Shown: positions 530-62,467 of the stretch, in pieces
How the letters are laid out: the number at the start of each line of letters is the position of its first letter
How positions within the stretch are numbered: the first letter of the stretch is position 1
NCBI GenBank assembly: GCA_016125005.1
Contig: WGMQ01000003.1
Location: 1-64,000 of the forward strand
Length of the DNA stretch: 64,000 nucleotides
From: a bacterium
GTDB lineage: Bacteria; Sumerlaeota; Sumerlaeia; SLMS01
Direction: 5' to 3'
Position numbers and translations under genes: made by a program
Notes under the pieces: model-generated
Seen by the model: only the letters and a program-made list of their open reading frames with translations
Told to the model about the DNA's origin: nothing
Databases searched by the model: none

Positions 530-1873
530 CTACCCTTCGCCTTTCTTGCCCGCCTTAGCCCTCCCGATCTTCTTCCCGATCACCCCTGCCGCCTGCCGGG
601 CAGCCTGATCCGCTAGGTGCGCATAGCGATCCGTCGTACTGCTTCGGGCGTGGCCCATCGTCTTGCCGATCACCGAGAGACTGAGCCCCTCGCCGATGCC
701 AAGACTGGCGTAGGTGTGCCGTAGGTCGTGGATCCTCGCCGCGGCCAGCTCGGCGGCGGCCTTCACCAGCGGAGGCGGGAGCGGCCCCTTCGGATCCCGA
801 CCCTCCTGCTTCCGGCGCTCCCGCTCACCCTCGACAAGCAGCTCAGCGGCCCGCTTGCGGAGGCGGCGCCAGGCGGGGTGTGCCGTGTTCAGGCGGGCTC
901 CTGGCAACCGCCCGGCAATCACCCAAGGCGTGTTCCGGTTTCGAACCGCGTAGAGCGCCGTCAGGATGTCCATCGCCTCCTGATTGAGCCAGATCGATTT
1001 CTTCCCCGTCTTCGAGTCGGGCAGTTCCACCACGCCGCGGTCGATGTCCACCCACTCCCACCGGCAGCCGACCCATTCCCCCACGCGGGCGCCCGTATAG
1101 ACAAGCAGGCGGAACAGCGCCACGATGGGAGGCGGCATCCCCCGCGCCTCCCTCCCCGTTGCCGTCTCCGAGTCAACCGCCTCCCGAAACTGCTGATGGA
1201 CCGCCGCGAACTCATCCAGCGCCGCGAAGAGCGCCTCGATCTGAGCAAGGGAAAGGAAGGTCTCCCGGCCCTGCTCCCGGTTGAGTGTCACGCCCGAGGC
1301 CGGGTTCTTGCCGTCGTACAGCCCCCACTCGATGGCGCGAGCAATGAGGGTGCGCACGAGCTGCACCACGCGGTTCGCCGTGGTGGGTGTCGCCTTGAGC
1401 GACTGATGCAGGTTCACGATGTCGCGCCGCTCGATGGAGGAGAGTTCCTTGCCGCCCAGCTTGGGCTCGATGTGAACCCGCCATCGCATTCCATGATCCA
1501 GCCGGGTCTTGGGTTTCCAGTCGGAGCGCTCCAGTGTGATCGCCCATACCTCGCGAAGAGTGATCGCCGCGGCCCGGCGCCGCTCAGCCTCCGCCTTCGG
1601 ATCGATCCCGGCCCGGCCCTGCTGAAGGAGTTCCCGCGCCCGCTCGCGAGCCTCTTCGACCGTGAAGGTTCCAAATGCGCCGATGGCGACCCGCCGCTGC
1701 TTCATGGGGCCTCGCACCCAGACATTCGCCAGGAAGGTTTTCCTCCCTGTCGAGAAGACCTGAACCCCGAAAGCCTCAAGGACAGTGTCCCAGATGATGT
1801 AACGATCCGCCGCCGGTTCGGCGGTCTCCACCACCCTCTTGGTCAGCTTGGCCGAGCGCACCGCCTTCCGCAT
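530..1873 (-). CDS. Tyrosine recombinase / integrase (P4-type, tRNA-targeting)
   Basis: A 447-residue site-specific recombinase. The N-terminal part (about residues 10-90, GRKTFLANVWVRG and IGAFGTFTVEEAR) matches the DUF4102 arm-binding domain of P4-like integrases. A SAM-like core-binding domain follows. The catalytic domain shows TGARVGE (first Arg), HDLRHTYAS (H-x-x-R-H), a GHA..STTDRYAHL tail with the nucleophilic Tyr, and a Lys in DSKTGKK. I chose ATG 1873 because GGAGAGG lies 5 bases upstream; ATGs at 1891 and 1906 lack a ribosome site. The gene starts 140 bases from a 3' half-tRNA-Arg and is transcribed away from it, as expected for the integrase of an element inserted in that tRNA gene. 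The gene carries one copy of the GTATAGAC word (1095). Confidence 0.95.
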   Translation of the reverse strand: MRKAVRSAKLTKRVVETAEPAADRYIIWDTVLEAFGVQVFSTGRKTFLANVWVRGPMKQRRVAIGAFGTFTVEEARERARELLQQGRAGIDPKAEAERRRAAAITLREVWAITLERSDWKPKTRLDHGMRWRVHIEPKLGGKELSSIERRDIVNLHQSLKATPTTANRVVQLVRTLIARAIEWGLYDGKNPASGVTLNREQGRETFLSLAQIEALFAALDEFAAVHQQFREAVDSETATGREARGMPPPIVALFRLLVYTGARVGEWVGCRWEWVDIDRGVVELPDSKTGKKSIWLNQEAMDILTALYAVRNRNTPWVIAGRLPGARLNTAHPAWRRLRKRAAELLVEGERERRKQEGRDPKGPLPPPLVKAAAELAAARIHDLRHTYASLGIGEGLSLSVIGKTMGHARSSTTDRYAHLADQAARQAAGVIGKKIGRAKAGKKGEG

Positions 1874-2012
1874 GGAACCTCTCCGGGTCATACTATGATC
1901 ATTCACAGAGCACGCGCGGAGTGTAGGCCCAGAGCGCTAGAGCGCAATCAGAACCGCCTAGAATCGGCACTATTCAACTTGGAGGGGTTCCCAGCGAATG
2001 GCTAAAACCTAT

Positions 2013-2057
2013 CTTCTAAGCAGTTGGTCACAGGTTCGATTCCTGTCGGGAACGCCA
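2013..2057 (+). tRNA. 3' half of tRNA-Arg(TCT): attachment site (att) of the integrated element
   Basis: The sequence reads anticodon loop CTTCTAA (anticodon TCT), 3' anticodon stem, variable loop, a complete T-arm (ACAGG-TTCGATT-CCTGT), the 3' acceptor strand CGGGAAC, a discriminator G and CCA. The bases 5' of the anticodon loop cannot form the anticodon stem or a D-arm, so similarity starts abruptly at the loop, a common crossover site for tyrosine integrases. It is therefore a duplicated 3' tRNA end left by integration, not a working tRNA. The intact tRNA-Arg copy should lie at the other end of the element, beyond the left edge. A pyrimidine/T-run (2058-2066) follows. Confidence 0.85.
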
Positions 2058-2184
2058 CTCTTTTTGGATTGTTGGCTGTCGTTGGAGGAGCTTGTTTCCC
2101 TTGCATGGGCGGGGGGGGCTGTGGTGCATTGCGAGTCTGCGAGCCGTCGTGGCCCGCTATCCTGTCTTTGTGGAGTCCTGAGCC

Positions 2185-2520: not shown

Positions 2521-2569
2521 CAGGCGGCGCGTCTCCAACCTGATTTCCCCATCGCTAAGGAGTCCATTC

Positions 2570-2806: not shown

Positions 2807-2818
2807 GTCAGGTTCAAG

Positions 2819-2853: not shown

Positions 2854-2867
2854 AGGCCAGCTCAGGC

Positions 2868-5500: not shown

Positions 5501-5507
5501 CGAAGAC

Positions 5508-6248: not shown

Positions 6249-6260
6249 CCCAACTGCCAG

Positions 6261-6307: not shown

Positions 6308-8272
6308 CTAGACGACTCGTGGAAGGAGCAGGTTGGTGTCTTCCCACCGGGCTTGCAGGCGCTTCGCTTCCTCTCGGACGTAATCCTCCGCGATGGCGGA
6401 ACGCGCCGCCTTCCTGTATAGACGAAGCACCTCGATGCTGTCGGGATCGCGTTGCTCGGCATCGCGCCCAAGCAGCAGGTAGGCGTAGGCGGTCTCGCCG
6501 CTGGCGAGCTGATTCATCTCATAGGTCATGATGGAGCTCTCGTCCGCGTTGCGTGCGGCAGTGCGGATGTGTGCGAGACCGTTCGCGCGTGCGTCTTCGG
6601 CCTGCTGGGATGGGGCACCTGCCTGGCGGAGGAGGCCCTCCTTGAGCCCGAAGGCGGCATGGCGGCGCAGGAACTTCTCATCGGCGAGTAGTGCTTCGAC
6701 ATCGGCCTTTGCCAAATCGAAGAGACCGAGGCGACGGCGGCAACGACCGCGGAGCAGCAGGAACTCAGGAGTCTCACGGCCAGTCAGCGCGGCGGTTGCG
6801 GCAAAGCCCTCCTCCATGGCAGCGGCGTCGCCCTTCTCGCAAGCCACGAAAGCCCGCAGCAGCACCGCGCGTTGCTTCTCGCCCAGCTTTTCCAACTCGG
6901 TGGCGACGGTCTCCGCGTTGTGCGGAAGTGCCCATTCCACCATCATGTCGCCGACGCGTTGGAGTGTCTCTGCGCGTACCTCGCGGCGGAGGACCTCTCC
7001 GAGGAAATGAATCCACGCGTCGAGCCCCGCCACGCGGTCATGAACAGCAAGCTGGGTCAGAATGGTGGTCGCATACTCGTTCACCCACTCAGAGTTTTCC
7101 TTCTTGATGGTGAACGACTTGGCCGCGACCTCGATGGCCGCCTCGACCGAGCGGAGAGCCAGCACGGTGAGGAAGTGTGCCGCCGCCTCGGAGCCGGTCG
7201 TGTGGTCGTAGAACTTCAGCCCAAGCTCGTCCATGGTGCGAAGGGCCTCAGGCAGACGCCGAAGCTGGAACTCGCAGACGGCCTTGATGGAACGGGCATT
7301 GTCGTGGAACTTCATGCGAGGGAGTTCCTCGCGGTGGTCGCGATAGATGTCCAGCACTTCCTTCCACTTTCCCGCGTAGTAGCTGGAAAGGAAGAGCGGG
7401 CCCCAAAGGTTCTGCTGCTTGTTGATGCGGCTGCGGGGGAAGCCCATCAGGACGGCCTGGCGGGCGGCGTCGTGCTCCTCGTGGGAGGAGAAGAGGTAGG
7501 TTGCCCGCTCGACATCGATGCCCTCGAAGGGGAACGGCTTGCGCGCATAGTTGCGTCCGGCACAGCGCACGGCACTGGGCGCCTTGTGCCGGTCGCCCAT
7601 GACCAGAAGCGACGTGATCAACTCGCGGTTCTCCGTGCGGAAGGCCTCCACCATCCCGGCGTGCGAATTGAGCAGGGGGGCGATGGGCGGTTCGATGCGA
7701 TGCTGCTCCAGCCACGTCGCGTAGAAGATCACGTTGTCCGATTCGGTGAGGCGGAACCCTTTCTCCAGAAGCCCGTCGATGAGGGCCACATGCTCGATGA
7801 GGCGATCCTTTTCCGCCCCCGTGGCCATCATGCCCTGCAGGACGATGAACATGGCCTCGAGCGTCCCCGTCCGGCCCGGCGGCTGGAGGAGCGGGTCGAG
7901 GACCTGCTGAACCTTCGCGAACTCGCGGAGCTTTAGTAGCGCATCGGCAGCGCGCAGGTAGAGGCGAAAGCCTTGGATCGACCCTTCGAGCTGGCCGAAC
8001 TGAGCGGTCAGCGTGTCCACGATCCGCTGGAACTCGCCATCCTGCTCGTAGCGGAAGGCCTGCACGAAGGCGAGGTCGGCGGGGTGAAGGGTGCCGTCGC
8101 CGGTGAGGGCCGCCAGAAGCGTGTCGGCCTCGCCAATCTCTCCGCGCGAGAGAGCTTCCCAGGCGAGCACCGCCCGCCGGAAGTCGTCCTCTGGCTTGAG
8201 GTCCAATTCCGCCACGCGGAAGGGATCGAGTGCACGAAAGGCATTCTGGACGTCGGACTTGAGCACAAGCAT
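6308..8272 (-). CDS. Large all-helical repeat protein (TPR/HAT-like), function unknown
   Basis: About 654 residues from ATG 8272, which has AAGGA upstream; the open frame extends to 8368 but without a better start. No signal peptide, no membrane segment and no catalytic motif are seen. It is built of paired amphipathic helices with Ala/Leu/Tyr spacing typical of TPR-like solenoids (for example VLALRSVEAAIEVAA and LLRGRCRRRLGLFDLAKAD), so a scaffolding or protein-protein role is likely. I do not recognise a named family. Its neighbours (SDR, DUF1232) give no functional clue. It carries the word GTATAGAC at 6416, read as RLYRKA. Confidence 0.85.
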   Translation of the reverse strand: MLVLKSDVQNAFRALDPFRVAELDLKPEDDFRRAVLAWEALSRGEIGEADTLLAALTGDGTLHPADLAFVQAFRYEQDGEFQRIVDTLTAQFGQLEGSIQGFRLYLRAADALLKLREFAKVQQVLDPLLQPPGRTGTLEAMFIVLQGMMATGAEKDRLIEHVALIDGLLEKGFRLTESDNVIFYATWLEQHRIEPPIAPLLNSHAGMVEAFRTENRELITSLLVMGDRHKAPSAVRCAGRNYARKPFPFEGIDVERATYLFSSHEEHDAARQAVLMGFPRSRINKQQNLWGPLFLSSYYAGKWKEVLDIYRDHREELPRMKFHDNARSIKAVCEFQLRRLPEALRTMDELGLKFYDHTTGSEAAAHFLTVLALRSVEAAIEVAAKSFTIKKENSEWVNEYATTILTQLAVHDRVAGLDAWIHFLGEVLRREVRAETLQRVGDMMVEWALPHNAETVATELEKLGEKQRAVLLRAFVACEKGDAAAMEEGFAATAALTGRETPEFLLLRGRCRRRLGLFDLAKADVEALLADEKFLRRHAAFGLKEGLLRQAGAPSQQAEDARANGLAHIRTAARNADESSIMTYEMNQLASGETAYAYLLLGRDAEQRDPDSIEVLRLYRKAARSAIAEDYVREEAKRLQARWEDTNLLLPRVV

Positions 8273-10676: not shown

Positions 10677-13600
10677 ATGCTGACTTCCCACCTCCCCACA
10701 CCGACCCAGCGGCAGGTTCTTGAGCCGATTGAGCGTCAGGAACTGATTCAGTCCATCTGCCTGAAGCTCGCCACGCTCGGCCTTCCGAGCCCCCGTGTTG
10801 CCGACAAGAACGTGCTGGACCTGACGGAGGGGCTCATCCGCGCCTATCAGGAAAAGTCGCGTCTGCTGGACGAGTATCTCCCCCCGATCGACCAGCGCAT
10901 CCAGGCCTATCTGGATCGCGTCCTGGACAAGACGGGGATTCAGCCTCGGCTTCCGTCCAAGACCATCGTGCTGGACCAGCCGGGACTGGCGCGTGAGCTT
11001 TCCCTCCCGGTGGATGGAAATTACTTCCGCAACGATTTGGTCCAGTCCTATCGACTGCGCCAGGGCGTGCTCCACAACCCCGCCAGTGACCGCCGCACCA
11101 CCAGCGGCGTGTTTCATGTGGCGGAGGAAGGCCTGCCGGTCCCGCCGGACAAGAAGGCGGTGCCGCTGGTGGCTTTTGCCAAGCTGCTGCACTTTGCATT
11201 GAATCCGCCCGGCGACTATCGTGCGCTTCCCTTCCTGGCAAATCAGGCGCCGGACGTGCGCGCCCCCTTCGTGTCGTTGTTGCTTCGCCCGATCGTTTGC
11301 CCGGCCGTTCCGGGTCGTTGGTCGGAAAAGACCATGGAGATTCGCTTCCTGGTTCCGCCCGCCTTTGTCTGCAACGTCGACTTCGTAGAGTCGATCTTCG
11401 GCAACGCGGGCGATCCGTCGCTGCCGGAAAACGACGCGGCGCTGGATGTCGAGCATTGGACGGGGCACACGGGCTGCGTGATTCTGGCCCCGCACCTGAC
11501 CAAGCTGACCAAGAAGGAAGTGGGTCTCCCCCACGTCGACAAGGCGACGCCGCGCCAGATCAAGGATGGCATGTGCTGGAAGTCCGAGGACGAGCTCTAC
11601 AATGATGGCAGCGCCTTCAAGGTGACCTGCCGCAACGAGCTGGGGGTCATGGTCACGCTCATCGCGGACAACTACTTCGGCTATTGCAAGAAGGAGGTGA
11701 AGACCCAGATCTCCTATGCCACGAACCTGTACGGCAACAGCGAGGAGGAGCACGCGGGCGGCGCCATCGCCTTCCCGCGCTTCAACCTAGGCGATCGCTT
11801 CAAGATCGAAAATGTCGAATCTGTCGCGGGGCACACGCTTGCCGAGGTGAAGCGTCTATACGGCGACCGCCTGCACTTCCTGCCGGAAGGTCACGCCTGC
11901 GACCGCGAATATCCCACGATCATCTACCTGCCCGAGAACGCCGAGTTTGACCTGCAAGCTCAGGTTGTCTTCTGGTCTGTCGACGGCGAGCGACGCGAAA
12001 TCCGCATTTCCCCCGATGTGACCTACATCTATCCGCACGGCTACAAGGTGTCGCTTGAGCGTCACCCCGGCGCGCCTTCCTGGCGACTGGTGGGCACCGC
12101 GGCGGAGGGCACCTTCTGCCACAAGCCCTGCACCGTTTCCGGCGGCGGAAAGTCGGAAATTTCCAAGTCCATCCTCGACTTCTTCCAGTTCGGTCCCTTC
12201 TTCGTCAGCGACTTTCAGAAGGACATGGCCGCGGTGGAGGAAATCCTGGCGCGCGACTTCGGCGACCGCTTCCTGCACGAGATTCCCAACAAACGGCAGG
12301 GCCCGTCACGCCCGATCCTGAGTCCGGCTCGCAGCCTTGGCTCGGTCATCAAGCTGCTGACTCCCTCCAAGTCCGACTACACTGAGGCCTACAACAACTG
12401 GCTGGAGAGCATCCCCGATCATATCAAGGCGATGATCTTCATCATCAAGCGGTTCTACCGCCCCGAGTGGGGCGACAACTGGCGCAGCTTCTTCTCCACC
12501 GACCTGATCAACGGCCTGCCAGGCCACGAGCTGAAGTACAAGCGCCGCCGTCTGGTGGCCAAGTACCTGCGCATTGGCCTCGACGAGGATGGTTCGTGGC
12601 GTACCTACAAGATGCGTCAGGACTTTGTCTCCTCGACCAAGATCCAGATGGAGGACGACATCACGGCGTCCACCGTGGTGCCGACGAACTGGCTGGAGAC
12701 GGTCAAGGACAAGCGCCCGTCCATCAAGCTGACCTCCAACTGCGAAAACCGACTCTTCCAACGTCCCGATGAGGCAATCCATCGCGGCGCCGACCGGCAG
12801 ACCGAACTGGAGATGGCCCAGCCGGGTAACTTCGTCTCGAACTTCGAGCCGTTGAACCCTGCGCGGGCGCGGCACATGGTCGAGGAATCCATCCAGTTCA
12901 GCAAGTACACCGATCCCATGCGCACATTGCTTGAGGGTGCCGCGAACGATCCGGAGGGAAGCTGGGTCGTTTCCTCCGCGCATCCGCGCATCGTCGATGG
13001 CAAGCCGAGCAAGAACCCGCGCTACCTTCAAGTGCGTCCGGACCTGCTGGCGCCGCGCACGAAGCTTCTCGCGGAGATGGGTGTGCGCCTGCGTCGCCGT
13101 CTCACCGCAGACCAGCCGGTCGTGTGGCCCGTGAACGCGGTCCTGCCAGGACGCCGGAACAATCCCCCGGACAAGGCCGCAGGCATTCGCGCGCTGGCCG
13201 TGTACAATCCGGTGCACTACCAAGAACTGCCCGAGCTGTTCATGGACTTCATTTGCAGCCTGACCGGCAAGTCGCCTTCCACGACCGGCGCGGGCTCCGA
13301 GGGCGCCCTCACCAAGGGACCGTTCAATGCCCTCAACGCGACCGCCGACCTGAACGGCGCGCTCATCAGCTACATCCTGACCGGCTACAACGGCTTTACC
13401 ACGGCCGCGGGGTACATCGGCCCGAAGTATCGCGTCGACCACGACATCAGCCTCATGATCCCCGAGCTTTGGTGTCGCATGACCGATGAAGAGCGCACCG
13501 CCGAGTACCTGCTGGCGAACGAGTGCTTCGACAAGCTGGAGGACTTCACCCACAACGGGCGCAAGGTGTTGGCCAGCCGCCTCGGCTACCGCATGAATGC

Positions 13601-15174: not shown

Positions 15175-15190
15175 CACTGTATAGACAGTG
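15175..15190. repeat. Intergenic hairpin made of the GTATAGAC word (CACTGT-ATAG-ACAGTG)
   Basis: A perfect 6-bp inverted repeat with a 4-base loop that contains GTATAGAC at 15179-15186. This is the only one of the 27 exact copies of the word that lies outside a gene. It sits 33 bases after the SGNH hydrolase stop and 25 bases before the true terminator, so it is not needed as the terminator itself. Confidence 0.8.
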
Positions 15191-15345: not shown

Positions 15346-18300
15346 ATGGCCATCAGTCCGGAAGACTTCGTCCATCTTCACGTCCACTCCGAATACTCGC
15401 TGCTCGACGGTGCGAACCGCATCAAGCCGCTGGTGGAGTATGTGAAGGAACTGGGCATGAAGGCCGTGGCGCTGACGGATCACGGCGTGATGTGCGGCCT
15501 TCACGAGTTCCGCGCGGCGACAGAAAAGGCGGGGATCAAGCCGCTGCTGGGTTGCGAGGTGTATATCACGCCCACGCACCGCTCGCGACGCGGCGGCAAC
15601 GAACGCAAGGAAACGTCGCACCTGCTGCTGCTGGCCCAGAACTATCAGGGCTACAAGAACCTCATGAAGCTCTCCAGCATCGGCTTCACGGAGGGTTTCT
15701 ACGGCAAGCCGCGCATCGACATGGAGGTGCTGGAAAAGTACAAGGATGGCCTCGTGGCGACATCCTCGTGCCTGGCCGGACTGATCCCCCAGTCGATCCT
15801 CTCCAAGGACGAGAAGCGCGCGCAGGAATACGTCGGGAAGTTCGTGGATCTCTTCGGCAAGGAACGCTTCTTCGTCGAGATCATGGACCACGGCATGTCG
15901 GAGCAGTACGAGGTGAACCGCGAACTGATCAAGATCGCGAAGGCCACGGACCTCAAGTTGATCGCGACGAACGATTGCCACTACCTGCGGCGCGAGGACG
16001 CGGACATGCACGACGTGCTGCTCTGCATCCAGACGGGCTGCGTGATGGCGGACCAGACACGGTTCAAGTTCCCCGCCAACGAGTTTTACGTCAAGACGCC
16101 GGAGGAGATGACGTACCTTTTCCGCGATCATCCCGACGCCATCACGAACACGCGCCATGTGGCCGAGATGTGCACCGTCGAGTTCCCGAAGAAGAGTTAC
16201 TACCTGCCGAAGTTTCCGTGTCCCGATGGCATGACGGAGCCGGAGCTGTTGGTGAAGAACGTGTGGGACGGCGCAAAGATGCGCTATGGCGCGCGTATAG
16301 ACACCGACAAGGAACTGACGGATCGCATCGCGTTCGAGCTGGACGTGATCCAGAAGATGGGCTTCGCGGCGTACTTCCTCATCGTGGCGGATTTCATCGC
16401 GGAGGCCCGTAAAATGGGCATTCCCGTGGGGCCCGGACGTGGATCAGCGGCGGGTTCGGTGGTGGCGTACTGCCTGCGCATCACCGAGCTTTGTCCCATG
16501 GAGCACAACCTGCTCTTCGAGCGGTTCCTGAACCCCGACCGCGCGACGATGCCCGACATCGACATCGACTTTTGCTTCGAGCGGCGCCAGGAGGTGATCG
16601 AGTACGTCCGGCGCAAGTACGGCAACGAGTGCGTGTCGCAGATCATCACGTTCGGAACGCTGAAGGCGAAGGCCGCGGTGAAGGACGTGGGGCGCGTGAT
16701 GGGGGTGGACCTTAAGCTGGTCGACCGCCTCTCGAAGCTGATCCCGGAAGGCCCGAAGACGACGCTGGCGAGTGCCCTCAAGGAGGCTCCCGAGCTGGCG
16801 CAGATGGTCGACTCGGAACCGATGCTGCGGAAGGTCTTCGACTACGCGACGCGCATCGAAGGCATGGTGCGCCACGCCTCCACCCACGCGGCCGGCGTGG
16901 TGATCGGAGATCGCGACCTGACCGAGTACGTCCCGCTCTACAAGTCGCCGAAGGAAGAAGGCGCGGCCACGCAGTTCACCATGGGTCAGGTCGAGGAAAT
17001 CGGCCTCCTCAAGATGGACTTCCTCGGCATCAAGAACCTGACGATCATCCATCGCGTTGAGGAGTGGCTCAAGAGCCGCGAGGGAATCACGGTCGATTGG
17101 GACGCGATCAACTTCATCGATCCGAAGACGTATAGAAATCTACACAGGGGCCAGACGGCGGGCGTCTTCCAGTTGGAATCGGGCGGCATGACGGCCCTGG
17201 TGAAGGCGCTGAAACCGAGCGAATTCGCCGACTTGACCGCGCTCCTCGCCCTGTATAGACCGGGCCCACTCCAGGCGAACATGCACATGATGTACGTGGA
17301 TCGTAAGCATGGTCGCGTGCCCGTGGAGTACGATCACCCGCTGCTGGAGCCGATCCTGAAGGAGAGCTACGGCATCTTCCTCTATCAGGAGCAGGTCATG
17401 CGCGTGGCGATGAGCCTTTGCGGTTTCACGCGCGGCGACGCGGACGTGCTCCGCAAGGCGATGGGCAAGAAGCAGGCGGATGTGATGGCCAAGATGGAGG
17501 CCAAGTTCATCCAGGGCGCCACGAAGACGAACAACGTGGAGGAGCGCCTCTCGAAGCACATCTGGGATCAAATCGTGACCTTCGCGGGCTACGGCTTCAA
17601 CAAGTCGCACTCGGCGGCCTACGCGGTGCTGACCTTCCAGACGGCTTACCTACGCGCCAACTATCCCGCTTATTTTCAGGCGGCGCTCCTGACGAACGAA
17701 ATCGGCGGCACCACGGACGCGATTGCCAAGTATGTGCTGAACGCCCGTGAAATCGGCATCGAAGTGATGCCGGCGGACGTGAACAAGTCGATCGAGGTCT
17801 TCAACCCGGACGGTGATCGCATCTGGTATGCGCTCGGTGCCGTGAAGACGGTGGGCCAATCCTTCGTTCAGCAGTTGGTGGCGGAGCGTGAGGCCAACGG
17901 ACCATTCAAGTCCATGCAGGACCTGATCACGCGGATGCCTCCGGGAAGCGTCAACAGCCGCACCATCGAGGCACTTATCAAGGTGGGAGCCTTCGATTCG
18001 CTCCACAAGAATCGCGCCGCCATGATGGCTGCCCTTCCGGAAATCATCGAGGCGGCGGCGCTCAAGAATCGCAACGATTCGCCCGACATTTTCGACCTGG
18101 GAGGCAGCGCTCCAAAGTTCGAGGAGGTTCGCCTCCCCAACGTCGCCGACTGGGACGCGAAGCAGCGCGCGACTTACGAAAAGGAGTTCCTCGGCTTCTA
18201 CCTGACGGAGCATCCACTCAACAAGTACCGCATCGAGATGAACAGCTTCAACCATGTGCGCAGCAGCCAGATGAACGAGATGGCGGAGGACATGGCGGGC

Positions 18301-18889: not shown

Positions 18890-19720
18890 ATGACGAACCG
18901 CAAGATCAAGATCCTACTCGCAAACGACGACGGTATCGACGCGCCCGGCATCCAGGCGCTCTATCGCGAGTTGCGCTCCCATTTCGAGGTCACCGTGGTG
19001 GCCCCCATGTACGAGAAGAGCGGCGCGGGCTGTTCGCTCTCCTTGAGCGCCGAGATGGAAGTGGACGAGCGCCGGGACCACGGCAAGACGTGGGGCTATG
19101 CGGTGAACGGCACCCCGGCGGACTGCGTGAAATTCGCGATGGTGGCCCTCAATGGCTATCGCCCCGACCTGGTGCTGAGCGGCATCAACCGCGGCACGAA
19201 CCTCGGCAACTCGGTCTTCTATTCGGGCACGGTGGCTGCCGCCATTGAGGGCACGCTCTACGGCCTTCCCGCAATGGCGTGCTCGCTCGCCTGCTGGGGA
19301 CACCCCGAGGCCTATTATGCGGACGCCGCCAAGGTCGTTCGCCAGTTGGTGCCGTGGCTGCTCTCCTTCGATCACGAGCCGCGTACCCTCTGGAACATCA
19401 ACTTCCCTAACCTGCGCTATGAGGAGCTTGGCCCGATCAAGTTCACCTCGCAGGGCACCTCCTTCTACGAGGACACGTTCGAGCTGTATAGACAGGACGG
19501 CGTGCAGCGTTACTACCGCAACGTCGGCGCCGAACTGAAGGCGTGCGAAGTGAAGGCGGACGCGGACGACCGTGCCGTGGCCGAGGGGAATATATCTCTC
19601 TCACTGCTGCGCACCGACCTGACCATCCCGATTCCCAATGCGGCAGCCCGCGCGCTGGAAACGCAGTGCAACGGGCTGCTGCGCGGAAGTCGCCATCATG
19701 CCGCGACGGCTGGTCACTGA
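18890..19720 (+). CDS. surE: 5'-nucleotidase / survival protein SurE
   Basis: 276 residues from ATG 18890 (AGGA 9 bases upstream). SurE signatures: ILLANDDGIDAPGIQAL with the metal-binding Asp pair, VVAPMYEKSGAG, VNGTPADCVKFA and LVLSGINRGTNLGNSVFYSGTV. It is a metal-dependent phosphatase of nucleoside monophosphates and short polyphosphates. The last 23 bases overlap tilS, so the two are translationally coupled. The word at 19486 encodes Leu-Tyr-Arg. Confidence 0.96.
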   Translation: MTNRKIKILLANDDGIDAPGIQALYRELRSHFEVTVVAPMYEKSGAGCSLSLSAEMEVDERRDHGKTWGYAVNGTPADCVKFAMVALNGYRPDLVLSGINRGTNLGNSVFYSGTVAAAIEGTLYGLPAMACSLACWGHPEAYYADAAKVVRQLVPWLLSFDHEPRTLWNINFPNLRYEELGPIKFTSQGTSFYEDTFELYRQDGVQRYYRNVGAELKACEVKADADDRAVAEGNISLSLLRTDLTIPIPNAAARALETQCNGLLRGSRHHAATAGH

Positions 19721-48971: not shown

Positions 48972-49634
48972 ATGAAGAACAAGAGCCTGATCCTCGTTTC
49001 CGCCGCCCTGGCGCTCGTCCTGGTGGTTGGAACCGTGGCGATCATCGCGCGTGTGCGCCATCTGGCCAGCTCACCCAGCGCCCAGGTCGCCGCTCCCGTC
49101 CTCAAGGCGGGGAACCTCAGCATTGGCGATGCATTCCCAACCGATCTGGTCGTGAAGGACGGCGAGGGCAAGCAGGTGAATCTCTCCAGCTTCAACGACG
49201 GTGAGCACTTCGTTGTCTATACATTCCACCACCCGGACTGTCCCTGCGCCGCAAATTGCGGTGCGCTGATCGGTGAGATGGGGAAGGCCGGTTATAGCGA
49301 CGTCCGCGTCATTGGCATCATGGCGGAGGGCATGGATGACGAACGGGTCATGACGGCGCTCAAGGAGCAGCGCGAGAGCGGCGCCATCACCTTCCCGGTG
49401 TATTTCGACGAGGGGCAGACGGTGATGAATCGCCTCGGCGCGACGCGCACGCCGGAGATGTGGCTCGTGGACAAGGAAGGCAAGGTTCGCTACTGGGGCG
49501 CTCCGGAAAACACGCTCTTCCCGGGCACGCCGGGACACCGCTACTACCTCCGCGAAGCGGTCGACGCGCTCCGGGCCGGGAAATCACCGGAAGTGACGTC
49601 TGCCAAGCCCATCGGCTGCATCATCGGCGGCTGA
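48972..49634 (+). CDS. Membrane-anchored thioredoxin-fold (redoxin/AhpC-TSA-like) protein
   Basis: 220 residues with one N-terminal membrane anchor (LILVSAALALVLVVGTVAIIA). The thioredoxin-fold domain starts GDAFPTDLVVKDGEGK. In place of a CxxC motif it has the cysteine cluster HPDCPCAANCG; the cis-Pro loop is RTPEMWLVDKEG. The C-terminus PIGCIIGG adds a further Cys. It is probably a periplasm-facing thiol oxidoreductase or peroxidase. It follows lon and the lipoprotein in one unit. Word GTCTATAC at 49215 encodes V-Y-T. Confidence 0.9.
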   Translation: MKNKSLILVSAALALVLVVGTVAIIARVRHLASSPSAQVAAPVLKAGNLSIGDAFPTDLVVKDGEGKQVNLSSFNDGEHFVVYTFHHPDCPCAANCGALIGEMGKAGYSDVRVIGIMAEGMDDERVMTALKEQRESGAITFPVYFDEGQTVMNRLGATRTPEMWLVDKEGKVRYWGAPENTLFPGTPGHRYYLREAVDALRAGKSPEVTSAKPIGCIIGG

Positions 49635-49664
49635 GCGGTGGAAATGCGCCGCACATGCACCCAC

Positions 49665-49924
49665 GCGGCAAGGCCTGAAGGGCCGACAGAGCGAAGCCCG
49701 GTCTGACTGAGCAACGCGAGGGAGGGCCGGGTGAGCGCGAGGAGCTTTTGCGGTCTGAAGGACCGCCGCTTCGTCGCGCTGGAGGACGCCTTCCCAGATT
49801 GGTGGAATAAACCTGCGGCGGTCCTTCAGACCGCGTTCCGTGATCGGCCAAGCCCAGGCCTCCCTCGCTATCGCTCGGTCAACCTGGGCTTGGCTCCGAT
49901 GGCCCTTCAGGCCATTGCCCGTTC
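49665..49924. repeat. Large imperfect inverted repeat (about 260 bp, cruciform/long hairpin)
   Basis: The outer arms GGCCTGAAGGGCC (49672-49684) and GGCCCTTCAGGCC (49900-49912) are perfectly complementary. Inside them AGAGCGAAGCCC.. and GCGAGGGAGG (left) pair with CCTCCCTCGC and ..GGGCTTGGCTCC (right), with scattered mismatches. The inner arms are perfect over 20 bases (49750-49769 with 49815-49834). The remaining loop is about 45 bases. Transcribed, it would form one very long hairpin. It follows the redoxin stop by 30 bases. Similar palindromic units may recur elsewhere in the genome. Short frames inside it are not genes. Confidence 0.88.
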
Positions 49925-51470: not shown

Positions 51471-53321
51471 TCACTCCCCGCCGAACAGACCCTCGATGCC
51501 GGTATGCTCTGCGCTCTCGAAGTCGTGGTCTGTCGACTCGTCGTTGCTGATGATAGCCCCTGCTGTTGAGACGTATATACGCGCCCATCCCGCCCAGATA
51601 TCACGTCCGGGCGGGATGAATGAGGCGTCGTGGCCGAAGATCAGGTTCTCGAAGGTGAGGTCCGCCCACCCCGAGCGCACGTTGGTGATGGGGAGGCGGA
51701 ACCAGTGCCAGAGGCGGCTGTCGGGATCGAGCGCCTGAATGAGGACCTTTTGAAAGAGTCGATAGCTGCGGCCCGCCTGACTGACGCGGACCGAGAAGCT
51801 GACCGGGTGGCGGGATCGCTCACCAGGAAGTGCCGGTTCGAGCAGGATGCCAAAGTGGACGATCGGATCCTTGGGCAGCTTGACCGGCCAGGTAAGCTGG
51901 CAGGGGACGCGCAGGGCGATGACGTCCTGCGAGCCGGCGTTGCCGTGAAACGTGTCTATACAGAACGGCCCTTCGAGCGGTGACCGGACCCGCGCCGATG
52001 CGATGTCCGACATGCCGTCGAGCGCCGCATCCTCGCGCCGCACGACGCGCAATGCCTTGGCGAGCGAGTTGATCTTCTGGATTTCGTTGAGGGCAGCAGC
52101 GGCGTCGCGATAGATCTCCGGCGAAACCTGCGCTGATGGGCGGGAACCGGATGCGCCCGTCATTTCCAGTTCCAACTGATCCCACTGCGGGTTCTCGGGA
52201 AGGGGCTTGTGGAGCTCGCCGACGACGGACGTCGCGCCCGAGGCGCGGGCGAATGCGATGGTGGACTCCAGCGTCTTCAACGACTCACCCGGCGTTCCCA
52301 GGAGCAGGCGTACATGGGTTCGAATCCCGAGCGCCTTGCACAGCGCAAGTGCCTCACGGACCTGGGCGTTGTGCACGTTGACGTCGGAGTGGCGATGGCG
52401 CAGAGGCTCGTTGCCGGACTCCATGCAGATCTCGATACCCTGCATGCCCCCTTGCTTCAGGACGGAGAGCCGTTCGTGATCGAGGTGTTCGCCGATGGTG
52501 CGGATTCGGAACGGGAGGCCCACCTGATCGACCCAAAGGCTCACGAACTCGCTGGTCCAGGCCGGGTCCCACGGAAAGATATCGTCCGCGAAATCGATGG
52601 CCTTTAGCTTGTAGGTGCTGGCGAGCTTCACCGCCTCCTCCACCACCCGGGCCACGGGGCGCATGTGGTAGTAGCTCGCGGTGTCCTGAAGCGCGCGGAT
52701 CATCGGCTGGTCGGTGAAGAGACTCTGAAAGGGGAAACCGCGGCTGGCAAGAATGGGAAGCCGGGCGCCGCGGGTCCGAGACCATTCCATGGGCTTGAGA
52801 CCCTCGGGATTCGGACGCGGCCAACTACCGAGTGATGGATTGTAGGTGCGCCGGGGACCAAGCGCCCACCCCTTGTCGGACCGCCACCAGGTGCCGGGAA
52901 CTTCGGATCCGGGGCGATGCTTCTTGAGCGCGGTAATCAGTTCGGCGGTCGCCTCGACCCACTCGCCCAGCAGGATGGCTCCCGGTACCGTATGATTGGT
53001 GAAATCATGGCTGTTGAGGGTGCCCTCGGCGCCGGCGATGGCCACGCAGCAGCGCGGCGAAATCTGCTTCATCTCGTTGAGAAGCCCCAGCGCGGTGGGA
53101 GACTGCCCGCGGTTGACGATCAGCACGGCCAAGCGCGGCGGGCGCTCGACCAAACGCTGCGCCACGTACTGGCGCTGTGCCTCGGTGCGGACCATGCAAC
53201 CCTCGACGTGGAATCCGCGTTCCTCACACAGGCCGACAGCTTGCGCGGTCTCGACCCAATCCCGTTGGTTGATCGTGTAGCTTTCCTGCAAGAGAATGAC
53301 GCAAACGTCTGTGACCGCCAC
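51471..53321 (-). CDS. Degenerate radical-SAM-like protein lacking all three cluster cysteines
   Basis: 616 residues from GTG 53321 (GAGG upstream). An N-terminal B12-binding-like Rossmann domain (residues 1-140) is followed by a radical SAM barrel: ILASRGFPFQSLFT, a Y.(M)RPVARVVEEAVKLAS helix, IDFADDIFPWDPAWTSEFVSLW, IRTIGEHLDHERLSVLKQGG, IEICMESGNEPLRHRHSDVN and LLLGTPGESLKTLE. In active enzymes the first of these reads RGCPFxCxFC. Here the three cysteine positions are Phe196, Ser200 and Thr203, so a 4Fe-4S cluster cannot be held in the normal way. A C-terminal beta-rich domain (about residues 440-590) may bind carbohydrate. The rest of the fold is well kept, arguing for a functional non-catalytic or altered role. 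Confidence 0.88.
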   Translation of the reverse strand: MAVTDVCVILLQESYTINQRDWVETAQAVGLCEERGFHVEGCMVRTEAQRQYVAQRLVERPPRLAVLIVNRGQSPTALGLLNEMKQISPRCCVAIAGAEGTLNSHDFTNHTVPGAILLGEWVEATAELITALKKHRPGSEVPGTWWRSDKGWALGPRRTYNPSLGSWPRPNPEGLKPMEWSRTRGARLPILASRGFPFQSLFTDQPMIRALQDTASYYHMRPVARVVEEAVKLASTYKLKAIDFADDIFPWDPAWTSEFVSLWVDQVGLPFRIRTIGEHLDHERLSVLKQGGMQGIEICMESGNEPLRHRHSDVNVHNAQVREALALCKALGIRTHVRLLLGTPGESLKTLESTIAFARASGATSVVGELHKPLPENPQWDQLELEMTGASGSRPSAQVSPEIYRDAAAALNEIQKINSLAKALRVVRREDAALDGMSDIASARVRSPLEGPFCIDTFHGNAGSQDVIALRVPCQLTWPVKLPKDPIVHFGILLEPALPGERSRHPVSFSVRVSQAGRSYRLFQKVLIQALDPDSRLWHWFRLPITNVRSGWADLTFENLIFGHDASFIPPGRDIWAGWARIYVSTAGAIISNDESTDHDFESAEHTGIEGLFGGE

Positions 53322-55281: not shown

Positions 55282-55290
55282 TGGGAAGGA

Positions 55291-56644: not shown

Positions 56645-58264
56645 TCAATCCGCGAATCGGGACGGGACTCCGCGTCGTTCATCGAACGGCATTCGCGGCA
56701 AGCCGCCTCGACGCCAGATCACGAAGCGCTTCACCCCGCGACCGTCGATGAAGGCCGGTCCCTGATACACAATCGCCACACGATGGAGAGTAATCGATGA
56801 GTCCGCCTTCTGCAAGTAGAGGCGCGACGGGCGGGAATAACGATACACTGGATGCGCTGCATCGATGTCCCCGGCGGGAATCGCGTGGTGCGCGATGAAG
56901 TCAATACTCTCCGCATCGAGGTAGCTGGCGAGGCCCTGATGAGCAATGTGCTCCTGCATCTGGATGTTGTTAATGAGACCGTCCAGGTTCACCACTCCCC
57001 CGCCGCGATAGTAGCCGAACACGCCACAGTCGCTCATGCCGATGTGCGTCTTCGCGGGGAGGGACTCACGCGTCCACAGGGCCGCCGCATAGCTCTGGGC
57101 TTGAAACGCCCGGGCGTCGCGTCGCCACAGGAACAGCACCTGGCCAAGGAGCCCCACTGTCACCAGAAGGACACAGACCACGCCAACCAGACGCGCCCGG
57201 AATCCTTCATGCTCGACGGCGCCATCGGCCAGGCTACCAATAGCCAGCATGGCAAACGGCCAGTATCCGGTCAGGTGCCACGTATAGACACCCCATCGCA
57301 TGAAAAGCGCCGTATAGACGAGGTGTATAGATTGAAAGACCGCCCCAACAATCAGCAGGTGGCGTAGAGCGGGACGTGATTCCCGTCGGGCGGAAAATGC
57401 GGTCAGTGCCAGCAGGCACGCTCCCATGACAACATAGGGAGCATGGGGCCTTGGAAAGAATACCGGGTTCGGGAAACCGGACTTTAGCTTGCCGGAAATG
57501 GGAGAGAGACTTCCTGTGGTCGCGTAATTGATGGCGAAATAAATCGAGGCGACCAGGATCACGGGCAATCCCCAGCCCAGCGCTTTTCTCCACCAACCCG
57601 GAAAATCCAACAAACGTCGCAAATGGCCCAGGGTAGCCAAGACTCCGAGACCCAGGCAAAGCAGCGCCAAATCCAACCGGGCGAGGAAGAGCATCGACAG
57701 GATCATGCCGAACTCGATCTCCCGTTTCCAGGGGCGCGCGGACAGAATCGCCTCCCGGCTGGCAACAAATGCGAGTCCTCCCAAACCCAGCAGAACCAGT
57801 CCGCTCTCCAGCCCATCCGTGCAGCCGTAGACAACCGGCGGAAGCGCCGCCACAGCGATCATGGCGCAGAGTGCACGAGCCTTAAGGCCCATCCGACGCC
57901 CGGCGGCAAGGAGCAGCAAGATGCCTCCCACGCCGAGAAGCCATTGCAACGACAGGAGGGTACGAGCCTGGTACTCGAGATCGGATAAATCATTTCCCGA
58001 CGGATGAAAAAATACAGCGACAAAGGCGCAGCATAGCATCCACAACGGGTGATAGCCATTGGTGGAATTAGTTCCGTCGAAGGTGCTCCCCACGCCCGCG
58101 GCCAGATTCCTCGAAACCTGAAAATAATAATAGGCGTCATCCGGTGTCTGCGAAACAAAAGCCGACGTGGGAGAAATCCAATGCCAAAGCAGGCGGAAGG
58201 CAAAAATACAAATCACGCCCACCGGCACCAGATGACACCAGCCTGGGACATTACTTGGCTTCAT
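56645..58264 (-). CDS. Polytopic membrane glycosyltransferase-like protein (GT-C)
   Basis: 539 residues with about ten membrane helices. The first periplasmic loop has QTPDDAYYYFQVSRNLAAG, an acidic DD motif typical of GT-C/PMT-like enzymes, followed by a GTNSTNGYHPLW motif. The C-terminal 170 residues are a soluble periplasmic domain (THIGMSDCGVFGYYRGGGVVNLDG, typical of this subfamily). It probably moves a sugar from a polyprenyl-phosphate carrier. It overlaps the upstream GT-C gene by 14 bases (ATG 58264 with GAGG). Two exact words (57282, 57312) and one near word (57325). Confidence 0.87.
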   Translation of the reverse strand: MKPSNVPGWCHLVPVGVICIFAFRLLWHWISPTSAFVSQTPDDAYYYFQVSRNLAAGVGSTFDGTNSTNGYHPLWMLCCAFVAVFFHPSGNDLSDLEYQARTLLSLQWLLGVGGILLLLAAGRRMGLKARALCAMIAVAALPPVVYGCTDGLESGLVLLGLGGLAFVASREAILSARPWKREIEFGMILSMLFLARLDLALLCLGLGVLATLGHLRRLLDFPGWWRKALGWGLPVILVASIYFAINYATTGSLSPISGKLKSGFPNPVFFPRPHAPYVVMGACLLALTAFSARRESRPALRHLLIVGAVFQSIHLVYTALFMRWGVYTWHLTGYWPFAMLAIGSLADGAVEHEGFRARLVGVVCVLLVTVGLLGQVLFLWRRDARAFQAQSYAAALWTRESLPAKTHIGMSDCGVFGYYRGGGVVNLDGLINNIQMQEHIAHQGLASYLDAESIDFIAHHAIPAGDIDAAHPVYRYSRPSRLYLQKADSSITLHRVAIVYQGPAFIDGRGVKRFVIWRRGGLPRMPFDERRGVPSRFAD

Positions 58265-60893
58265 CGGCGTCCTCGTTCAGCCGCTTCAACAGAGGATCGG
58301 CAATCTCCGTGGCAACTCCCGGAGACTGAAACGTGGCGACCCACATCCGACCGCCACTCGTCGGACGCAGCGGCTTGATGGGCATGATCTGGAGTCCGAC
58401 AGAAAGCGCCGCCGCGCCTTCAGGAACAGGAACAACCAAGTCGCGCCGCACCCAAACTCCATCGGGAAGCGTGCCGCGGAAATTGGGACCGTTCGCCGGA
58501 ATCGGACTGCTCATGGGGCGACCAGACTTGTCGATGAAGGTCAAGGCGCCGTTCGATTCGCCATGCTCGAGGCCCTCCCAGCGGGCATAGTAGGAGAACG
58601 CCGCCACCGTGCCCGGCGTGACCGGCGCTGGGGGCGCATAGAAGCCGACCACTTTCTTCGTATCCGCGGGATAGGGGATCACGACAACGGGGTCCCCGCC
58701 TAGACCCGTCAGTGTTGAATCCGCCGCGATTTCACCGATCCCGGTCCACGACCATGATCCGCCCTTTGGGTCACCATAAGTCGGCATCGCATCCCAGCTA
58801 TCGGAGAGCGGCACCGAATCCGGCGCTTGGTCGGTAGGTCCCTTTATCCGCCAATCAGCTCCGTGGAAATTCCACGGGAAATAGGGAGTGTACTGAAGGC
58901 GTGCCGCCGTGAAATAGAGCCCCACACGGTGGAGTCCCGGTTCAAGGGCGATGGGGATCGTCGCCACCTTCTCGGATGCTCCCCCGGGGATTGTATAGAC
59001 AGCCGTCGTGTGCCCGTCGACCGACACTGCCAGAAGAAAATCCGCCGGAAGGGGAGTCGAATTCTTGCGCGCGATGGGATCGTCAGGAAAGCGACCCGAG
59101 TATCGCACGGCCAGCACCCGCTCAGATTCGTCGGGCTGATTAATGACGAACTCCAAGCGATCGTCGCGTTCGAAACGAAGTGCCGTCTTTCCGCCGATCG
59201 TCACAAGGCTTGTGTACTGATGCGTGGGCCAGGCGATGGAATCCAGAGGACCGAAGTGATCCAACGGGACAGGTAGCGTCATCCGTTCCGGCGCCGATGC
59301 CAGGACGACGTCGTACTCCGGACCCATGCGTGACGTGCCACGATATCCGACCTGCATGTCTTTTGTGATCAACTGCCAGAGGCCCGGCGCCTCCGCTTCG
59401 CGCCACGCAGACAGAATCGTCGGAGATGATCCGCTCGCCATCAGAGCACGCAGCGGCATTTCGTAGCGCGCCGCCACTCCGTGCTCGAACAAATAGGCGA
59501 GCGCCGGAGATTCAATCGAGTGTCCTGCCTTCCCGACAAAATAGTCGGCCTGCACCAGATCGTTCCGATGAGGGACGAAAATTCGCTCATCCTTCGGCAT
59601 CGATTCCAGAACCTTCACGGCGCCGTCATAGTTGGACAAATCCGCGGTGAAATAGCGTCCTGAAAAAAACACCGAGCAGACAACGCAAAGTCCAAGACAA
59701 ACCCGAGGAAAAATAAATCGAACGCGCGATTCCGAGGTCTCGCCCTCGGCACCGAAAAATGCCACCATCAATCCCAGGAAAGTCGGAACCAGAAAAATAA
59801 AGTAGCGGGTATAGTAGGCGCGCTGAACGGTGAGACTGAAAAGCGTGAAATAGGCTGCGACGGGAAGAAGCATCGCCAAGACAAGACCAGACATGGCTGC
59901 CGGTGAAAGACGTCGCATTCCACCGCGGAACACTGAAATTAGGGATGCTGCAATGGCTGCTCCGGGTAGCAGTAGAAGCAGTCTGCTGTCCTCTCCTGCG
60001 CGGAAGAAATTGACGACAAGAGCGAAGACTTCATCCAGAAGAAATCCCACACTGGGCGACACATTGGTCAGCTTGGAATTGCCCGGCTCGATGAGCCGAA
60101 AAATCGACGAGCCCTTTGTGACCAGAAAGAAAAACACCGCGACCAACAGCAAAATCGCGAGCGGAAGAAATGGTCTTCTCGGCCAGTCTGTCGGACTAAC
60201 GGAAATCATTTCCCGCCGCAGGTCGACGAACACAAAAGGGCCTATCAAGACAGCGCAAGCAACGGCACCGGTCGGAAGGAGAAATACCGGATGATTGAAA
60301 AATCCCGCGGCGGCAGCGAGTCCAATGAAACCCACACCTGGCCACACCGCTCCCCGATAGAAACATGCCATCCCGACGAGCAGCACCGCTGTATAGAAAG
60401 TCATACCGCCGTAGTAGTTGGCGTCCTGTGCATACATGATGAGGAAGCAGTTCGTTGCAGCGAGGGCGCCCATCCACGGCACGGCACGCCTGCCAAAGCA
60501 AAGTCCCGCCCACAGTGCCAGCAGCGGAACGGCCGACGAGCCAAGCAGAGCGCTCCAGAATCGCAACGCCCAGTTGCTCGATCCGAGGAGACTCAGGCAC
60601 CACTCCACTGGGACGAGGTGCGCCGCGTGTGTGCCGAACGAGATGATCGAATACTTCCCCGCCGATGCTTCCTTGAGCATCACGATTTCGTCCATCCAGA
60701 GGTTGCTCTCCCCCAGTTGGAAGAAGCGGATCATGAACGCGAGAATCGCGATGACGCCGAGCATGGGTAGCATGGCGCGTAACTCGTCGAGCAACACCGG
60801 CCCCTGCGGTTCGGGATCATTGGCTATCGCGGTCGGCACGAGGCTTTCACTGGATGTAGCCGCAGCACTGGCCTTCGATCGTTTGCGTGCCAT
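58251..60893 (-). CDS. Large GT-C (GT39/ArnT-like) membrane glycosyltransferase with C-terminal beta-rich domain
   Basis: 880 residues from ATG 60893 (TGATG overlap with the preceding stop). After the first helix comes ESNLWMDEIVMLKEA, the Asp-Glu acceptor/metal motif of GT39-like enzymes. About ten membrane helices follow, to residue 430. The C-terminal 400 residues are periplasmic and beta-rich: LAVRYSGRFPDD, DFLLAVSVDGHTTAVYTIPG and LEPGLHRVGLYFTAARLQ, then a second carbohydrate-binding-like part (AFSYYARWEGLEHGESNGAL). It probably glycosylates a lipid or protein outside the inner membrane. The donor could come from the GT2 at 36938. Word at 58993 (V-Y-T). Confidence 0.87.
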   Translation of the reverse strand: MARKRSKASAAATSSESLVPTAIANDPEPQGPVLLDELRAMLPMLGVIAILAFMIRFFQLGESNLWMDEIVMLKEASAGKYSIISFGTHAAHLVPVEWCLSLLGSSNWALRFWSALLGSSAVPLLALWAGLCFGRRAVPWMGALAATNCFLIMYAQDANYYGGMTFYTAVLLVGMACFYRGAVWPGVGFIGLAAAAGFFNHPVFLLPTGAVACAVLIGPFVFVDLRREMISVSPTDWPRRPFLPLAILLLVAVFFFLVTKGSSIFRLIEPGNSKLTNVSPSVGFLLDEVFALVVNFFRAGEDSRLLLLLPGAAIAASLISVFRGGMRRLSPAAMSGLVLAMLLPVAAYFTLFSLTVQRAYYTRYFIFLVPTFLGLMVAFFGAEGETSESRVRFIFPRVCLGLCVVCSVFFSGRYFTADLSNYDGAVKVLESMPKDERIFVPHRNDLVQADYFVGKAGHSIESPALAYLFEHGVAARYEMPLRALMASGSSPTILSAWREAEAPGLWQLITKDMQVGYRGTSRMGPEYDVVLASAPERMTLPVPLDHFGPLDSIAWPTHQYTSLVTIGGKTALRFERDDRLEFVINQPDESERVLAVRYSGRFPDDPIARKNSTPLPADFLLAVSVDGHTTAVYTIPGGASEKVATIPIALEPGLHRVGLYFTAARLQYTPYFPWNFHGADWRIKGPTDQAPDSVPLSDSWDAMPTYGDPKGGSWSWTGIGEIAADSTLTGLGGDPVVVIPYPADTKKVVGFYAPPAPVTPGTVAAFSYYARWEGLEHGESNGALTFIDKSGRPMSSPIPANGPNFRGTLPDGVWVRRDLVVPVPEGAAALSVGLQIMPIKPLRPTSGGRMWVATFQSPGVATEIADPLLKRLNEDADEAK

Positions 60894-62467
60894 CAGTTCT
60901 TGGCCTTCCGTTTCTCCGCGAGCGCCAGAAAAGTGCAATCGTTGCAGGACTTCTCGTTCAAGGCGCAGCAATCGGCGAATACCTTGTAGAGCGACTGCTG
61001 CACGATCTCTCGGTCGAAGAGCCCTTTCTCGTGGGAATCCGCCAGCAGGCGGCGCCTCATGAAACGGGAAACCGAAGTGGCCTCAAGCGCAGGAAAGCAG
61101 TGTATCGCTTGCCAGATAGACGCCTCGCGGGGGCGATTCTTCTCCTCCCGTGCCTTGAGGATGAGCATTGGCAGGAAGACGTTGAAGAGCAGGCTCATGG
61201 CGTGCGGCTCGCCGATGAGGGCCTGTGGCTTCTGCTTCTTGCCACCGATGGTGAAGTGGGTACTGAAGTAGGAGGCCTCGCCATCGACGACCAATTCGGC
61301 GGCGAGACTCTTCCAGGTCCGCCCAAGGTCACGACCATTCAGCGAGGGCCAGTCCTGGGCGCTAATCGCCCTTTCCAACCTCGCAAGCAAAGGGTCGGTG
61401 GTGTCCAGCAGCCGCGTGCAGAGGATGGCCATCGCAGCAAGGCGCCTTGGGGGAAAGCTGACAGGTCGAATACCTGCGAACCAGCGTCGCGTGGGCGGCA
61501 TGAGTCGATCCGACAAATAGGGCCTCGCGTGGCGCCAATGACGCTCAAGGCGCTGGATAAAGTCCTGCGTTTCCGGATCCTCCGGAATCAGATCCTGCTG
61601 CTCTGGCATCAATCGGGCAACGTATAGCAAGATAGACAGATAGATGTCTATACGGTTGTTCGAATGGGCCTCGCTCGCCTGTTCCCGCAGCTCGTCGATG
61701 GGAGCGCGCTTCGAGAGAAGGAAGTAGAGCGTCTTGGAGGACTTGTAACCCTGGGCCACCAACAGGGCCTGGTAGACAACCTGAAGGAACGAAGCAGTGG
61801 CACGCTGGGCCTTGAAGCGGGCGACCTTCGCCTCCACGCGGGAACGCCCCGCCGCCAGCAGGAAGTCGCGCAGTTGCGCGGGCGGAAGCCGCAGGAACTG
61901 TTGATGGCAGAGACCGTGGTCGTCCGGCGTTCCGTAGGGATAGTCGCCGGGATTGATCGACTGACGAATCGTGTCGAGGTCCGGTTCAAGGAAATCACCG
62001 AGTACGAGTCGCTCGAGGCGCTCGCTGTTCTGCTTCTGCTCGTACGGACGATCGTCGGAGGCCCGCAGCACGGCGTGGAGTACCGTGCGGTTGTACTCGA
62101 AATCCCGATCATGACCGTGGCGATGCCAGTCTGCGGACTCGACGTGGATCTCCACGTCGCCCTGGAGCACCTCGCCCGCCACGACGATGCGAGCGTCGAG
62201 GAAATCCGGTCCGCGACCCGTGTTCCAACGGCCGGGCTCGAGTACCTGGACTGCCTTGCCGCTGGCAGTGGAGAGCTCGGCTCCGCGGAGCAGTTGATCG
62301 GCCCAGATGGCCTGCACCAGTCGTTCATCGAGTGGCGCAGTGACGCGGGGAGTCTCCGAAGCCTCCGCGGCAGGAAGGCTCGCGGCCATCTGCAACGCGA
62401 AGTCGCGATGGGCGGCCTGCCAGACCTCCTCGATAATTTCCGGTTCGAATCGCAAACTGCCGTCCAT
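60893..62467 (-). CDS. DUF2851 family protein
   Basis: 524 residues from ATG 62467. The DUF2851 N-terminal pattern is clear: DERLVQAIWADQLL, VQVLEPGRWNTGRGPDFLDARI, GDVEIHVESADWHRHGH and YNRTVLHAVLRA. This block has a PD-(D/E)xK-like look (GPDFLDA...GDVEIHV), so a nuclease-related fold is possible. The C-terminus has clustered cysteines, CCALNEKSCNDC. Function unknown. It is the first gene of the minus-strand block ending at 56645 and diverges from the membrane-fusion gene at 62626. Word at 61646 (R-I-D), plus a partial copy at 61622. Confidence 0.9.
   Translation of the reverse strand: MDGSLRFEPEIIEEVWQAAHRDFALQMAASLPAAEASETPRVTAPLDERLVQAIWADQLLRGAELSTASGKAVQVLEPGRWNTGRGPDFLDARIVVAGEVLQGDVEIHVESADWHRHGHDRDFEYNRTVLHAVLRASDDRPYEQKQNSERLERLVLGDFLEPDLDTIRQSINPGDYPYGTPDDHGLCHQQFLRLPPAQLRDFLLAAGRSRVEAKVARFKAQRATASFLQVVYQALLVAQGYKSSKTLYFLLSKRAPIDELREQASEAHSNNRIDIYLSILLYVARLMPEQQDLIPEDPETQDFIQRLERHWRHARPYLSDRLMPPTRRWFAGIRPVSFPPRRLAAMAILCTRLLDTTDPLLARLERAISAQDWPSLNGRDLGRTWKSLAAELVVDGEASYFSTHFTIGGKKQKPQALIGEPHAMSLLFNVFLPMLILKAREEKNRPREASIWQAIHCFPALEATSVSRFMRRRLLADSHEKGLFDREIVQQSLYKVFADCCALNEKSCNDCTFLALAEKRKAKN

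Follow-up and report, generated by a model that had tools for sequence, protein, structure and literature searches.

A near-palindromic word dispersed through genomes of one family of Sumerlaeota and kept by a force on the DNA itself

Only a handful of short words dispersed through whole genomes have been described well, namely the uptake sequences of two bacterial families, Chi and HIP1. Uptake sequences are the best-established cause of words that lack a fixed orientation and alter the proteome, and Chi is present in about 1,000 copies in the 4.6 Mb genome of E. coli. Within the genes of bacteria with uptake sequences one orientation prevails (PMC2346458), and temperate phages gather the uptake sequence (PMC6776037). 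The stretch of DNA analyzed here as a whole (64,000 nucleotides, hereafter the window) contains the octamer GTATAGAC, the core of a new dispersed genome word that is of the same kind as uptake sequences, Chi and HIP1 and that tests did not place in any of these classes. Among the papers listed in a literature search for the octamer, all were unrelated.

A sequence-only reading of the window had listed 27 exact copies of the octamer against about one expected at an assumed GC content of about 63%, and all 27 were recovered at the same positions and strands (Table 1). Dinucleotide shuffles of the window (n = 100) yielded a mean of 0.14 copies and a maximum of 1; the GC content was 63.3%, for which composition alone predicts 0.85 copies. 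The frame contexts were likewise reproduced (V-Y-T 9, R-L-Y 6, x-I-D 6, x-Y-R 5), and the copy at 15179 is the only one between genes. The proposed shuffling of synonymous codons in the window genes, with the proteins kept (1,000 trials), gave a mean of 1.44 and a maximum of 6 copies versus the 26 genic copies observed, and shuffling of codon order gave 0.31.

Table 1. Copies of the octamer in the window, with the peptide that each encodes and its gene context.
Position	Strand	Peptide	Context
1095..1102	+	VYT	tyrosine recombinase gene (530-1873, -)
6416..6423	+	RLY	
11854..11861	-	RLY	
15179..15186	+		intergenic, upstream of dnaE
16295..16302	+	RID	dnaE (15346-18813)
17253..17260	+	LYR	dnaE
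19486..19493	+	LYR	surE-like gene
19831..19838	-	RLY	PP-loop gene (if its start is 19638)
20255..20262	+	LYR	PP-loop gene
21074..21081	+	LYR	PP-loop gene
28191..28198	-	RLY	
32078..32085	+	RID	sodium:sulfate symporter family gene
33080..33087	+	GID	sodium:sulfate symporter family gene (same as for 32078)
33298..33305	-	RID	GFO/IDH/MocA gene
33997..34004	+	RLY	GFO/IDH/MocA gene (same as for 33298)
35186..35193	+	VYT	
35877..35884	-	PYR	
36122..36129	+	VYT	
40410..40417	+	RLY	AcrB-ABC fusion gene; codons identical in species G004
40777..40784	+	VYT	AcrB-ABC fusion gene
41674..41681	+	VYT	AcrB-ABC fusion gene
49215..49222	-	VYT	AhpC/TSA family gene
51954..51961	-	CID	radical SAM gene
57282..57289	+	VYT	
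57312..57319	+	VYT	30 bp from the copy at 57282
58993..59000	+	VYT	
61646..61653	-	RID	DUF2851 gene

Other features of the window were noted in passing. The tyrosine recombinase near its start belongs to the phage integrase family and has the word, as VYT, in its conserved core. The AcrB-ABC fusion gene (39618-43985) joins an AcrB-type RND transporter to an ABC ATPase domain in a protein of 1,455 residues. At 49646-49922 lies a dispersed repeat of ~270 bp with internal inverted symmetry, many copies of which occur in the same genome in both orientations (80-86% identity).

All genomes used were fragmented assemblies of uncultured bacteria. In the source assembly (G000; 4.69 Mb, 112 contigs, 88.5% complete) the octamer occurs 1,078 times (0.23 per kb), whereas the reversed word, used as control, occurs 22 times (576 + 502 versus 10 + 12 copies), so that the genome-wide count is not near expectation. 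Detailed analyses were made on a sample of 832 kb with 0.30 words per kb, which is slightly rich because part of the contigs were chosen from a list of hits. The full motif is the ten-letter near-palindrome YGTATAGACR, with TGTATAGACA as its best form; 902 of the 1,078 copies fit it, versus 3 for the control. An earlier remark on a preferred left base was thereby borne out and extended to a pyrimidine on the left and a purine on the right, and no conserved flank was found among these copies past one base on each side of the octamer. In TGTATAGACA 8 of the 10 positions obey the two-fold symmetry, so that it is not a perfect palindrome, and it is an AT-rich word in a GC-rich genome.

The force behind the word was quantified with a codon model, in which, for each peptide that can be written with the word, the expectation from codon usage alone was computed and the log-odds needed to account for the observed spellings were expressed as scaled selection, S. 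Genes were called with a simple Markov caller of our own, and the S values assume that neighboring codons are independent and codon use is homogeneous among genes. Sampled G000 genes contained 224 word spellings versus 16.6 expected. For the complementary orientation S was 5.7, 5.6 and 5.2 in its three frames; for the direct orientation it was 4.8 and 5.0 in two frames, the third containing a stop. Such similar values across the five usable frames, whichever the orientation, point to one force of about equal strength throughout, and a single protein motif is, as had been argued, insufficient (S 4.8-5.7). Pooled S was 4.8 in G006, 4.4 in G002, 3.7 in G004 and 2.9 in G001, and in the species G003 it did not differ from zero. 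The earlier remark that VYT is spelled with the word extends through the G000 sample, where 105 of 107 VYT tripeptides are written in this way. Amino-acid frequencies predict only 25 VYT; the tripeptide is fourfold too common, and the proteins have therefore been changed. The same effect was absent from G003 (0 of 2 VYT spelled with the word).

Preferences at individual positions were resolved with the same model. S was 7.0 with flanks T..A, 4.7 with T..G, 4.3 with C..A and 2.5 with C..G, and low with most others; the additive and similar contributions from the two sides are as expected if a protein touches both halves alike. Within the core symmetry is incomplete, since GTATAGAT (S 4.1) exceeds ATATAGAC (1.7), and the perfect palindrome GTATATAC is weaker than the word itself (2.4 versus 5.2). 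The apparently depleted neighbors GTGTAGAC and GTATACAC are alternative VYT spellings.

When sampled genes were ranked by GC3, the lowest fifth had 0.60 words per kb and the highest 0.19, a trend expected if a force on the DNA works against codon selection. WD40, TPR, glycosyltransferase and orphan proteins are among the products of the genes richest in words. Genic copies lie opposite to the sense of the gene in 173 cases and along it in 51, a bias explained by codon cost and the in-frame stop TAG. No strand bias was seen beyond gene orientation (32/81 versus 92/19) in this fragmented assembly, and a strand-polar signal was rejected as far as counts corrected for gene orientation allow. An idea that TATAGA might represent a -10 promoter element was dropped for lack of any conserved sequence upstream. 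Counts per 20 kb were over-dispersed (2.4), and one word-free stretch of 20 kb contains ordinary core genes, including a secretin, and is thus not simply foreign DNA. In G000, 75.7 kb of intergenic stretches below 1 kb contained 8 words, which is 0.11 per kb versus 0.32 per kb in genes; no such deficit was found in G004 or G006. Terminator-like inverted pairs did not stand out in the G000 sample (three within 80 bp, all in genes). A 40 kb sample of contig C30 (L067-L068) showed a strong negative GC skew (-0.197) and few words.

Conservation in relatives, suggested earlier as a check, was assessed in orthologs. Between G006 and G002, which belong to one genus, 9 of 16 aligned words were letter-identical, rare ATA, CTA and AGA codons included, versus 0.39 predicted from independent codon conservation. 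Between genera, word sites mostly differ and often encode another peptide, and a gap was never seen at the site. Words therefore arise by substitution and not by insertion, and are created by point substitutions where the protein tolerates change. Together, the independence of frame and orientation, the retention between species beyond codon conservation and the absence from a sister lineage strongly support the proposal that the DNA as such is under selection or an equivalent drive. A force that acts on double-stranded DNA, blind to reading frame and strand, keeps the word with a scaled strength of about 5, rising to about 7 for TGTATAGACA.

Seven species of the family contained 1,078, 969, 930, 477, 274, 247 and 26 copies. 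Six are thus word-bearing and the seventh, G003, is at background; families elsewhere in the order, class and phylum are at or near background for the word. In a ClpX tree rooted with the neighboring family, G003 is the first to diverge and the six word-bearing species cluster together (support 86/86). With G003 as sister and the other families wordless, the word arose or expanded once within the family, one gain being the simplest history. Dialect-like shifts were found between genera (GGATATAC, GATAGACG, C..G flanks). A separate dispersed repeat family of ~330 bp, 77-86% identical, was seen in G006 (L123:16925-17260) and on many contigs of G002, where it has tens of copies.

Viral contigs were scanned for two nearby word copies, which identified one word-dense phage lineage. 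In its 18.5 kb contig (L366 and L344, as L459) 25 words were counted over 18,043 bp, YR flanks being present at 20, whereas composition predicts 0.21 words; the contig encodes a terminase, portal, major head protein, primase, helicase and Sak4-like annealing protein; a 5.1 kb relative has 14 words. In contrast, a close relative with 87-89% identical terminase and head protein, and ~77% DNA identity over 8.5 kb, has a single word in 18.5 kb, and 78 other viral loci with a homologous primase hold 17 words in 1.2 Mb, which is below the control. The phage has therefore gained the word after parting from its relatives. Its density (1.39 per kb) is six times the G000 average and its S (6.9-8.3) exceeds the 5.2 of this putative host, the true host being possibly an unsampled species with higher word density. 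Weaker relatives of the phage lie on contig C89 of G000 and in G002. Contig C89 (L551, L552), 40 kb long, represents a phage or prophage and encodes a terminase, a portal and tail proteins; its 10 words correspond to a host-like 0.25 per kb, and it also carries a DNA methyltransferase gene with a ParB-like domain, and a large ATPase. A scan for relatives of this contig found none. Another viral contig (L418, GC 0.69) has eight TGTATAGACA-like sites, several in pairs spaced 23-24 bp, which are probably operators for a regulator that this phage itself encodes and have nothing to do with the host word.

The sequence-only reading had offered an uptake-type sequence, a Chi-like or segregation signal, or a binding site as functions. 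A classical oriented Chi or segregation signal is disfavored by a near-palindrome without strand bias beyond gene orientation, whereas an uptake-type word or the site of a two-fold symmetric protein would fit. Our preferred reading, held at somewhat less than even confidence, is that YGTATAGACR may be a dispersed self-DNA word acting as an uptake-like label. On this view a protein whose recognition is nearly two-fold symmetric would take the word as marking DNA that belongs to the cell, word-bearing DNA would be favored in transformation and recombination, as with the DNA uptake sequence, and phages long resident in such hosts would accumulate it too. The suggested search for competence genes found ComEC in 7 of 7 genomes; it does not discriminate, as it is present in the wordless sister too. 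Three observations speak against uptake and would be better accommodated by an intracellular dimeric reader: the word is nearly palindromic, it is not enriched between genes, and a phage carries it more densely than the sampled host does.

Such an intracellular mark, read in the cell by a dimeric DNA-binding protein that spares or repairs self DNA or organizes the chromosome, is a serious possibility, little less probable than the uptake-like label and likewise below even odds. Variants would be a Chi-like effect on a helicase-nuclease or a defense that spares word-bearing DNA. The near-palindrome with additive symmetric flanks suits a protein dimer, and a phage lineage that gained 25 words in 18 kb, with an S above that of the putative host, where a relative has one and the 78 primase-homologous loci are at background, agrees with it as well. 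On the other hand, classical Chi and polar segregation signals are strand-biased, which is not the case here once gene orientation is corrected for, and the density of the phage may merely mirror that of an unsampled host. A bolder and rather improbable reading is a self-identity code in unmodified DNA, by which the cell would accept DNA as its own according to how densely it carries TGTATAGACA-like words and treat wordless DNA as foreign, and which phages would counter by writing the word at several times the host density.

The word might instead stem, as has been proposed for HIP1, from biased mismatch repair linked to methylation, or be kept by a methyltransferase. Like HIP1, it is palindromic in character, dispersed, mostly genic and spread by substitution (PMC4390886). 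We regard this origin as unlikely, however: among the two families searched (PF00145 and PF01555), the C5 methyltransferase PF00145 is absent from the word-bearing G000, G001, G002 and G005 and present in the wordless G003, and the N6/N4 family PF01555 is scattered, with none found in G005 (75% complete). The graded tolerance of variants such as GTATAGAT and GTATATAC is also unlike a strict methylase site. A protein- or RNA-level cause, with either the tripeptide VYT or a signal in the mRNA under selection, would agree with 77% of genic copies reading GTCTATAC in the sense strand and with VYT as the commonest frame; it is very improbable, since the same-strand RID and LYR are about equally enriched after codon use (S 4.8-5.0) and nearly all of the excess VYT is written with the word, and as the sole cause it is refuted by the similar S across frames. 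Scars or target sites of a mobile element, which the many dispersed copies might recall, are hardly credible and are refuted by gap-free ortholog alignments with no indels at word sites, synonymous replacement in place and a flank conserved for one base per side only.

The phenomenon is secure, and bacteria of this family probably carry a "my DNA" label of their own, a view drawn from a ten-letter word present in about a thousand copies and kept by DNA-level selection strong enough to alter proteins. An unrelated lineage thus supplies a further word of this sort. Its sister is wordless, its six species differ by degrees in density, dialects exist, and of two related phages one has the word and the other lacks it, which makes the family a natural comparison for studying the origin of such words and their readers. 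The codon method also converts synonymous choice into a binding-like table of preferences, which predicts the specificity of the reader (TGTATAGACA best, GTATAGAT tolerated).

Among known systems, KOPS and other polar segregation signals share with the word that they are short dispersed octamers; they are polar by definition, which the word is not, as far as a fragmented assembly shows. Chi of RecBCD/AddAB has a similar copy number per genome and lies mostly in genes, but is non-palindromic and oriented along replication, a bias not seen here in the fragmented assembly. HIP1 of cyanobacteria (GCGATCGC) is likewise a dispersed palindromic octamer spread by substitution and of unknown function. 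It differs in being a perfect palindrome, the perfect form being the weaker one here, and in accompanying GATC and CGATCG methyltransferases, while the word genomes share none of the two families searched. The uptake sequences of Neisseriaceae (DUS) and Pasteurellaceae (USS) are not near-palindromes like this 10 bp word; they are not scarce between genes and often form inverted terminator pairs, a usual rather than a strictly defining trait, whereas the G000 word is sparser per kb there. The present word moreover saturates one tripeptide, sits in an unrelated lineage, and is denser in a phage than in the sampled host, beyond the known accumulation of uptake sequences in prophages. Shared with DUS and USS are hundreds to ~1,500 dispersed copies on both strands, one prevalent orientation within genes, dialects between genera and carriage by temperate phages (PMC2346458, PMC3630211, PMC6776037), and the strong genome-wide over-representation on both strands that characterizes uptake sequences is equally found for this word (1,078 versus 22).
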